Shown: positions 38,257 to 40,988 of the stretch, piece by piece
How positions within the stretch are numbered: the first letter of the stretch is position 1
Layout: the number at the start of each line of letters is the position of its first letter
Source of the DNA: Polaromonas sp.
GTDB taxonomy: Bacteria; Pseudomonadota; Gammaproteobacteria; Burkholderiales; Burkholderiaceae_C
NCBI RefSeq assembly: GCF_029945925.1
Contig: NZ_JAQSDN010000042.1
Location: 1 to 64,000, forward strand
Length of the DNA stretch: 64,000 nucleotides
Direction: 5' to 3'
Notes under the pieces: model-generated
Database searches by the model: none
What the model was told of the DNA's origin: nothing
Seen by the model: only the letters and a program-made list of their open reading frames with translations
Translations under genes and position numbers: made by a program

Positions 38257-39087
38257 GTGCGTGCAGGGTCTGTCGGAATTTTTGACAGCGGCATCGGCGG
38301 CCTCAGCGTCCTCAAGGCGCTGCGCGCCGAACTGCCGCATGCCAACTTCCTCTACATCGCCGATAGCGGCCACGCACCCTATGGCGAGCGGGACGAGGCC
38401 CATGTGATCGCCCGCTCGCGCGCCCTCACCACGCATCTGCTGGACCAGGGCGTGCAGGCGCTGGTGATCGCCTGCAACACGGCCACGGCGGCGGCCATCG
38501 ACCTGCTGCGCGCCGAGCATCCCCAGTTGCCCATCATTGGGGTGGAGCCGGCCCTCAAGCCCGCAGCTGCGCTCAGCAAGACCCGGCGCATCGGCGTCAT
38601 GGCCACACGCAGCACGTTGGGCAGCAGCCGCTTCCGGGCTTTGCTGGGCAGCCTGGCGACGCAGGCCGAGTTTGTGCTGCAGCCCTGCGACGGCTTGGCC
38701 GACGCGATCGAGCGCGGTGTGGCCAACGCGCAAAACTCTCAAACCGCTACTGAAATAATAGCTGCCTGCGCCCGCCACACAAGGGCCATGGGCCAATTTG
38801 GCTTGAAAGACGGGGAGATCGACACGCTGGTGCTGGGCTGCACGCATTACCCGTTTGCCAGTGCCGTGCTGGGTGAACTGGTCGGGCCCGATGTGCAACT
38901 GGTGGACACCGGCGAGGCGGTAGCCCGGCAAACCCGCCTGCGGCTGGCGGGCGCCGTCCCGCCAGGCGCGGCAGACAGCACGCCGGGGCGGATCAGCCTG
39001 TTCAGCACCGGGCAGGCGGCCCACCTGCAAGCCGCTGCGCAGCGCTGGCTGCAGCTTGACGGCCCCGTCGGAACGCTACACTTTTAA
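38257..39087 (+). CDS. murI: Glutamate racemase
   Basis: MurI makes D-glutamate for peptidoglycan. The 276-residue protein has the N-terminal VGIFDSGIGGLSVLKAL and the two catalytic cysteines in IACNTATA (about residue 76) and LGCTHYPF (about residue 196). The start is GTG at 38257, two bases after the fumA stop; no ATG precedes the conserved FDSGIGG, and no clear ribosome-binding site is seen, so coupling to fumA is likely. A dispersed palindrome copy is translated in frame at about residues 162-182 (TATEIIAACARHTRAMG), between the two catalytic motifs in a variable segment. Confidence 0.93.
   Translation: MRAGSVGIFDSGIGGLSVLKALRAELPHANFLYIADSGHAPYGERDEAHVIARSRALTTHLLDQGVQALVIACNTATAAAIDLLRAEHPQLPIIGVEPALKPAAALSKTRRIGVMATRSTLGSSRFRALLGSLATQAEFVLQPCDGLADAIERGVANAQNSQTATEIIAACARHTRAMGQFGLKDGEIDTLVLGCTHYPFASAVLGELVGPDVQLVDTGEAVARQTRLRLAGAVPPGAADSTPGRISLFSTGQAAHLQAAAQRWLQLDGPVGTLHF
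38743..38803. repeat. Short palindromic repeat inside murI, copy 9
   Basis: CCGCTACTGAAATAATAGC, then TGCCTGCGCCCGCCACACAAGG and GGGCCAATTTGGC, is one of the best preserved copies of the family. It is fully inside the murI reading frame. Confidence 0.75.
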
Positions 39088-39141
39088 GAGCAGTCCGCGC
39101 AGGCTTATCAAGGGCTGGAGGCATAAAACACTCGAAAACCT

Positions 39142-39325
39142 GTAACTACTCAGAACACTGCATGCAGCATGCCTTTCTTGCCCCCTCGCCCTGTGGGAGA
39201 GGGTTGGGGTGAGGGCCAGCAAGCCCCAACTTGCGATAGCTCTCTGCACAGACCGCCAGCCCTCACCCCCGCCCTCTCCCAGGGGGAGAGGGAGTCAAAC
39301 CAGCCCAGACGACCTGAGTAGTTAC
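39142..39325. mobile_element. MITE-like element (184 bp) with terminal inverted repeats and flanking direct repeats
   Basis: Perfect 12-bp terminal inverted repeats GTAACTACTCAG (39142-39153) and CTGAGTAGTTAC (39314-39325) bound the element. It is flanked on both sides by the direct repeat GAAAACCT (39134-39141 and 39326-39333), as expected for a target-site duplication. Inside are two copies of a CCCTC-GGGAGAGGG palindrome in opposite orientation (39183-39215 and 39260-39292), so the whole element can fold on itself. It encodes no protein. No related transposase is in the window. Confidence 0.75.
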
Positions 39326-39382
39326 GAAAACCTGACCTTCGCCCAGCGCCGCCCGCAGTGGCAGCGCGGCCTATGCCGGTCT

Positions 39383-39422
39383 ATTGAGCGTTTCAAAACT
39401 CTGGACAGTCGGAACGCTCAAT
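39383..39422. repeat. Perfect 10-bp inverted repeat with 20-base spacer
   Basis: ATTGAGCGTT (39383-39392) and AACGCTCAAT (39413-39422) are exact reverse complements. The repeat directly abuts the solo GAGAGGG-type palindrome. It may be the end of a second, decayed element or a simple hairpin. Confidence 0.55.
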
Positions 39423-39458
39423 CCCTCACCCCGACCCTCTCCCGGAGGGCGAGGGTGA
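39423..39458. repeat. Solo REP-like palindrome
   Basis: CCCTCACCCCGACCCTCTCC followed by CGGAGGGCGAGGGTGAG is a third copy of the palindrome found twice inside the MITE-like element. Here it lacks the terminal inverted repeats. Very similar GC-rich palindromes are widespread in proteobacterial intergenic DNA. Confidence 0.65.
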
Positions 39459-39506
39459 GAGCAGTCCAGGTCACTGTCGTATCCTTGGAAAAAATCAATA
39501 GGACGG

Positions 39507-40988
39507 TCAGGGCGTGGTGGTGCCCGCTGCTGCCGCAGCCGCCACCGGCTCTTTCCAGCCCCCACCGAGCGTCTTGTACAGCGTGACCTGGTTCTGCAAC
39601 TGCAGCAGCCGCGTCTGCACCACCGCTTGCCTGGCCGCAAACAGGGAGCGCTGTGCGTCCAGCAGGTCGAGCTGGCTGGTTATGCCGTTCTGGTAACGCA
39701 GGTCCGAGAGCTTGAAGCGGGTGGTTTCGGCGCTGGCCTGGGCCTGCTGCGCGCGCAGCTGCTCACCCAGCGTGGCACGGCCGGCCAGCGCGTCGGCCAC
39801 TTCGCGGAACGCGGTCTGAATCGCCTTTTCGTACTGCGCCACCGCAATGTCGCGCCCGACATTGGCCGAGTCCAGCCCGGCGCGGTTGCGACCGGCGTCG
39901 AACAGCGGCAGAAACAGCTGCGGCGCCAGGGTCCAGCCGTAGGTGCCGCTTTCGAACAGCCCCGACAGGTGGTTGCTGACACTGCCAGCCGAAGCCGTCA
40001 GCGAAATGCGCGGGAAAAACGCGGCACGCGCCGCGCCGATGTTGGCATTCGCGGCCAGCAGTTGTTGCTCGGCCTGGCGAATGTCGGGGCGTTTGGTCAG
40101 CAGGTCCGAAGGCAGGCCCGCGGGCACGTCCACCATCAGCGGCGCATCGGCCAGCGCCTGGCCGGCCGGCAGCGCCGCCGCCAGCTCGCCGGTCAGCGGC
40201 TGGCCCAGCAGCAGCGTCAGCAGGTTTTCATTGAGCGCGCGCTGGCGTTGCAGCTGCGCCAGGCTGATGCGGGCCGCCTCGGTCAGCGACTCGGCCTGGC
40301 GCAGGTCCAGCTCGGACGTGGCACCATTGTCAAAACGCAGCTGGCTGAGCTTGAAGGAGTCCTCGCGCGTGGCCAGTGTCTGCTGCGTGATCGTCAGCAG
40401 CTCCTCGGCGGCCAACAGGCTCAGCCAGGTGTTGGCCACCGTCGCGATCAGGCTGATCTGGGTGGTCTTGCGGCCCTCCTCGGTCGCCAGGTACTGCGCC
40501 AGCGCGGCGTCCTTGAGGCTGGCGACGCGGCCGAAGAAATCAATCTCGTACGAGGTCATGGCCAGGCCGGCGGTGTAGACGCTGGAGATGCTGCCATTGC
40601 CGCTGGCATTGGGCTGCCGCGAGCCGGTGGCCGCCGCTCCCACGGTCGGGAACTGGTCGGCGCGCCGGATCTGGAACTGCGCCCGCGCCTGCTCGATGTT
40701 GAGCACCGCGATGCGCAGGTCACGGTTGTTGCGCAGCGCCGCCTCGATCAGCAGCCGCAGCTTGGGATCGCTGAAAAAACTCTGCCACTCGATGTCGGCC
40801 GCCGCGGTGGTCTGCACGGCGGTCGAGGCCGTGGTCGGGGCGACGGCGAGCGAACGTGCGAGACGCAGACCCGGCCAGTCGGTCGCGACCGGGGCCTCGG
40901 GGCGTTCATATTTTGGCGCCATCGAGCAGCCCGCCGCCAGCGCGACTGCGCTCAGCATCAGCACCTGCGTCAGCCGGGTCTTAGTCAT
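39507..40988 (-). CDS. RND efflux outer-membrane factor (OprM/NodT-type lipoprotein)
   Basis: The 493-residue protein is a TolC-like channel subunit. It has a lipoprotein signal with lipobox LAAGCS near residue 19, then two OEP repeats rich in long helices (NRDLRIAVLNIEQARAQFQ, KRPDIRQAEQQLLAANANIG, NGITSQLDLLDAQRSLF). The ATG at 40988 (MTKTRLTQVLML) overlaps the end of the pump gene by 8 bp; a start seven codons upstream is possible. It is the third gene of the efflux operon and completes the tripartite pump across the outer membrane. Confidence 0.95.
   Translation of the reverse strand: MTKTRLTQVLMLSAVALAAGCSMAPKYERPEAPVATDWPGLRLARSLAVAPTTASTAVQTTAAADIEWQSFFSDPKLRLLIEAALRNNRDLRIAVLNIEQARAQFQIRRADQFPTVGAAATGSRQPNASGNGSISSVYTAGLAMTSYEIDFFGRVASLKDAALAQYLATEEGRKTTQISLIATVANTWLSLLAAEELLTITQQTLATREDSFKLSQLRFDNGATSELDLRQAESLTEAARISLAQLQRQRALNENLLTLLLGQPLTGELAAALPAGQALADAPLMVDVPAGLPSDLLTKRPDIRQAEQQLLAANANIGAARAAFFPRISLTASAGSVSNHLSGLFESGTYGWTLAPQLFLPLFDAGRNRAGLDSANVGRDIAVAQYEKAIQTAFREVADALAGRATLGEQLRAQQAQASAETTRFKLSDLRYQNGITSQLDLLDAQRSLFAARQAVVQTRLLQLQNQVTLYKTLGGGWKEPVAAAAAAGTTTP

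Follow-up and report, generated by a model that had tools for sequence, protein, structure and literature searches.

The element reported here has three sets of described relatives. Elements of the ISBst12 group of the IS66 family carry a single transposase gene, and an active member, ISDge4, has the ends GTGACTACTCAGCA and GTAACTGCTCAGCA and an 8-bp repeat according to part of its published account, a part that also calls the mechanism of IS66 transposases insufficiently characterised (PMC12898284). Bacterial MITEs are short, bear inverted ends and a target duplication, and are thought to be moved in trans; an excerpt of one report describes MITEPsy1 as 100 nt long, with 18-nt ends and a 4-nt duplication, and as probably derived from ISPsy2 (PMC3189936). 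REP and REPIN sequences, served by RAYT transposases, are abundant small palindromes arranged in inverted pairs.

We characterised a 184-bp element within a stretch of 64,000 nucleotides (the window) from a draft Polaromonas genome. It resembles the ISBst12 group, as represented by the ISDge4 passage, in its GTAAC...CAG-type ends and 8-bp duplication, but carries no gene. It shares with MITEPsy1, as excerpted, the short length, inverted ends and target duplication, and differs from it in having 12-bp ends and an 8-bp duplication. Like REPINs it contains an inverted pair of palindromes, but the pair forms the inside of a larger unit bounded by inverted ends and flanked by target duplications. 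The family is a new example of the known MITE kind, unusual in two respects: its copies favour a particular landing spot, and ends like its own occur in very distant microbes. On sequence evidence we consider it very probable that the element is a MITE that relies for its movement on an ISBst12-type IS66 transposase acting in trans. An initial description of the element as undescribed stands within the literature searched, where we did not find the family, and reaches no further than that scope: the exact 12-mer end retrieved only an unrelated fish paper, and among the matches listed for shorter or variant end strings a Deinococcus paper alone concerned an IS, judged by titles.

Structure and genomic setting of the element

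A first-pass annotation, made from the sequence alone, had proposed a 184-bp element with perfect inverted ends, direct repeats on either side, and two facing CCCTC-type palindromes inside. Base-for-base comparison bears this out at 39142-39325: the terminal inverted repeats are complementary at 12/12 positions and separated by 160 nt, 8-bp direct repeats (GAAAACCT) lie on both sides, and the palindromes are 85% complementary. The further suggestion of a 10-bp direct repeat (39133-39142 and 39325-39334) takes in the first G and last C of the element itself. The window copy fits either length, and we set the duplication at 8 bp because two other copies, L003 (CTACTCCT) and L006 (GATCTTTT), are flanked by perfect octamers. 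The features of the locus are as follows.

39112-39122, + strand: core GGGCTGGAGGC of another dispersed repeat (the "landing pad"), with 19 nt between its end and the element
39134-39141, unstranded: left target-site duplication GAAAACCT, a single copy at the empty site of G004
39142-39153, + strand: left terminal inverted repeat GTAACTACTCAG, the same in the IS of G093
39154-39313, unstranded: interior of the element, compared with copies in the same genome
39183-39216, unstranded: first CCCTC-type palindrome, in opposite orientation to the second; palindrome-only matches are numerous in the genome
39259-39292, unstranded: second CCCTC-type palindrome, site of a deletion junction in the relative G033
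39314-39325, - strand: right terminal inverted repeat CTGAGTAGTTAC, complementary to the left end
39326-39333, unstranded: right target-site duplication GAAAACCT
39423-39455, unstranded: CCCTC-type palindrome lying beyond the element, the third at this locus; the G033 junction fuses the second palindrome to sequence past this one

The element occupies the gap between two convergent genes, lying between the end of murI, named as glutamate racemase from its match to PF01177 and to 23 PDB sequences, and the end of an outer-membrane efflux gene (PF02321). Its 184 bp leave coding room for at most 61 aa, and the sole ORF of at least 80 aa that overlaps it (39209-39586) extends far past it, so that it has the MITE trait of being short and free of a transposase gene. 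The 200-nt block that includes the duplications folds far more stably than shuffled sequences on both strands (z -8.9 and -6.3). Searches against Rfam returned 29 matches at a permissive threshold, none reaching the gathering score of its family, and we take these as chance matches owing to the strong hairpin of the element.

Dispersed copies and an empty site

The first-pass annotation had named a search for further copies as a check. Interrogation of the same genome (G000; draft, 4.78 Mb in 71 contigs) by BLAST with the 200-bp block gave 106 matches, many of them to the palindromes alone. Eleven of these, 78-100% identical, extend over most of the element. A twelfth copy is interrupted by an insert and represented by its two halves (L011 and L014), which brings the near-full copies to 12. 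The insert in L011/L014 lies in mid-element. With four partial or diverged copies (L013, L015, L016 and L017) these form a set of 16. The three nearest copies are 91-93% identical across the element, and the near-full copies resemble each other right out to their ends. Their number, together with the folding far above that of shuffles, indicates that the block is not a chance arrangement. Flanking octamers of the 12 copies are identical in three, differ at one position in four and at two in two, and differ at four or more in the remaining three, which have no convincing duplication; the duplicated octamers vary from copy to copy. Two neighbouring pairs were observed among these loci: L008 and L009 (G000 C18:54882-55289) adjoin and have similar flanks, as if duplicated jointly, and L004 and L011 (G000 C13) lie about 2 kb apart with 29/30 right-flank bases in common. 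Across the genus, matches at E <= 1e-20 occur in 12/87 genomes, G000 included. A plasmid search with the element found 53 records matching a part of it, none covering 80%.

An unoccupied form of the insertion site was identified among orthologous loci. Of the 87 genus genomes, 79 gave a match to the murI region; 30 loci were retrieved and 13, including that of the window, were compared. Five of the others are close, at about 90% identity, with the gene pair retained. In G004 the site reads ...CTCGAAAACCTGAC..., with a single GAAAACCT and no element; G004 has the element at other genomic places. The element is absent from four of the five close loci (G004, G070, G035 and G090). At the fifth, in G033 (L129), it is present but for its right end, and the second palindrome runs directly into sequence past the palindrome at 39423-39455; a deletion between palindromes would be the simplest account. 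From this comparison, the insertion is common to the window genome and G033 and absent in the four relatives. Both a second copy and an empty-site allele, whose joint lack the first-pass annotation had held to count against its reading, were found. Seven more distant murI loci (L134-L140) show no match to the element; their intergenic gap differs, and they are excluded from the empty-site count.

These comparisons bear on two other accounts. A transposon-born structure might have been retained for a role between murI and the efflux gene, either as a bidirectional terminator or as an mRNA-stabilising hairpin, as its position between convergent genes and strong folding on both strands would allow; its lack at four of five close orthologous loci, and its truncation at the fifth, make such retention improbable. 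Alternatively, the unit might amount to a pair of CCCTC palindromes of the REP/REPIN kind, dispersed by a RAYT (Y1) transposase, with the GTAAC ends incidental. BLAST within the genome does find the palindromes at many places without the element ends, and the genome encodes one Y1/RAYT-like (Y1_Tnp) gene. RAYT systems are recognised by palindromes beside the RAYT gene, and none of six palindrome half-site motifs was found within about 1.5 kb of this sole Y1_Tnp gene. Moreover, near-full copies are alike to their ends, and Y1 enzymes are not known to make target duplications. The 8-bp duplications and the exact empty site thus refute this account for the whole unit, and we give it scarcely any weight overall; a RAYT route may apply to the spread of the palindromes themselves.

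Terminal sequences in common with IS66 elements

The preferred reading, a MITE moved by an IS66-type enzyme, calls on an autonomous partner, and a search for an IS with the same termini had been proposed at the outset. Such an IS, with the same terminal 12 bp, was found as a multicopy 1514-bp element in the congener G093. On contig 46 of G093, a single long ORF (476 aa) lies between two ends that face each other across 1514 bp; it matches IS66 models (NCBIfam transpos_IS66, NF033517, E 2.1e-90; Pfam DDE_Tnp_IS66, PF03050, E 3e-46), and further copies are broken at contig ends. Among 11 IS ends in this genome (six left, five right), six pair as identical octamers (AAGATTCT, GCTGATTG and TCTGCATG); the five unpaired ends are the left flank on contig 46 and four others, and the two flanks of the contig 46 IS itself mismatch. 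MITE copies co-occur with the IS in G093, and the exact 12-mer end is present in 26/87 genus genomes. The element and the G093 IS match in the terminal 12 bp alone, their interiors being unrelated, and the MITE therefore did not arise from that IS by simple internal deletion. The G000 draft has no match to PF03050 or to the G093 transposase; a helper in the same genome, a usual but not strictly defining trait, was not found there. A multicopy IS could be missing from this assembly, as it is a draft of 71 contigs.

The element is a MITE on each feature tested, being short and without a gene, with inverted ends, an 8-bp duplication and empty site, and dispersed copies. Assignment to the IS66 family, ISBst12 group, is probable from two traits of an IS66 derivative, the ends in common with an autonomous IS66 element and the 8-bp direct repeats. 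From sequence comparison we infer movement in trans by an IS66-class enzyme, as follows. The enzyme would be an ISBst12-type IS66 transposase, the product of the one DDE transposase gene of an element located elsewhere. After binding the GTAACTACTCAG ends it would integrate the DNA and create an 8-bp duplication, probably with a preference for AT-rich targets. Such an event would have placed the window copy in the gap that separates the convergent murI and efflux genes, and the helper may have been lost from the strain or be absent from its assembly. For this genus the outcome is a small-transposon family in which both filled and empty alleles are seen and for which a class of helper is likely.

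Related transposases occur in 220 plasmid records, from which ten loci were fetched out of 40 listed. Eight of these ten have GTAAC...-type ends with an 8/8 duplication (Paraburkholderia, Candidatus Chlorohelix, Nostoc, Planococcus, two Geobacillus, Octadecabacter and Deinococcus), the ends having been chosen by maximal end match plus duplication with GTAAC not imposed; for Candidatus Chlorohelix the ends given tied for the top score. No such ends with duplication were found at the Streptomyces and Pseudanabaena loci. Plasmid annotation names one related transposase "IS66-like element ISGka4", and part of another source places ISGka4 under ISLre2, with a 9-bp repeat (PMC8024623); the name conflicts between sources and was kept out of the evidence.

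The same ends extend to distant microbes. In genome_contigs, which by its description covers 84,980 species, the exact two-ended pattern occurs at no fewer than 120 loci, where about 0.03 would be expected by chance on our own arithmetic. Interiors of the 120 matches listed fall into 76 families, and a perfect 8-bp duplication flanks 65 of the 120. Names among the 80 matches listed with taxa include Gammaproteobacteria, Bacteroidota, Anaerolineae, Nitrospirae, Firmicutes, Treponema, Acidobacteria and Elusimicrobia, and two archaeal MAGs (Methanosarcinales and Methanosaeta) are among the matches listed; most of these named matches are MAGs, in which binning errors are possible. A similar two-ended pattern gave no matches in viral contigs. 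Interiors matched elsewhere in their host stretches (<=8 kb) in 26/117 cases, three of the 120 being dropped for N runs, compared with 53/580 random segments, which is suggestive of interiors made partly of host repeats. Within six of the cross-phylum elements (L161, L170, L187, L193, L223 and L230) a variant end, GTAACTGCTCAG, is nested. As an exact pattern, one short end sequence detects IS66-type mini-transposons in very distant hosts.

Proximity to a second dispersed repeat

The core GGGCTGGAGGC has 103 exact occurrences in G000, and 30 of 40 fetched loci carry the same repeat upstream; the tail of this pad repeat stays AT-rich for about 18 nt past the core. Among the 16 element copies in the genome, 13 have a core-like match (<=3 mismatches), always 16-19 nt away and pointing at the element, with five copies (L008 and the four partial ones) measured at a single end. 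Of random positions with two flanks, 109/3000 had such a match at 16-19 nt and 577/3000 at 8-30 nt. The 16 copies are not all independent insertions, given the common flanks of L004/L011 and the side-by-side L008/L009.

This link could reflect active targeting of the repeat's tail, or instead an AT preference combined with survival in gene-free DNA. Targeting is favoured by the excess over random positions and by the octamers that differ among copies; it is weakened by the partial non-independence of the copies and by the tail being itself a local AT-rich stretch; perfect duplications among the matches listed in other phyla are also AT-rich (on average 74% AT, against 54% for their loci). In relatives the core lies beside nine of 18 copies (6/12, all six in G093, and 3/6), and the two G004 copies in the 12-copy set lack it. 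None of the 11 G093 IS ends has the core beside it, and five multi-copy families elsewhere have no clearly common flank. We regard active targeting as rather unlikely. The fixed distance to another repeat makes target choice by IS66 transposases directly testable.

A wider history may connect these observations, which we advance tentatively while leaning somewhat against it: ISBst12-type IS66 transposases would have conserved a single 12-bp end, with hardly any change, in bacteria and some archaea; unrelated DNA, partly host repeats, would repeatedly and independently have been made into mini-transposons with those ends; and in this genus the mini-transposon would be directed to a constant position within the tail of another dispersed repeat.

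We do not call the pad repeat a terminator, since folding at the 30 of 40 loci carrying it is barely above that of shuffles (mean z -1.0). An apparent copy of the pad repeat lies within the open murI frame of the window, at 38746-38808, and the one alignment shown, to the solved racemase 3hfr, has gaps near these positions.
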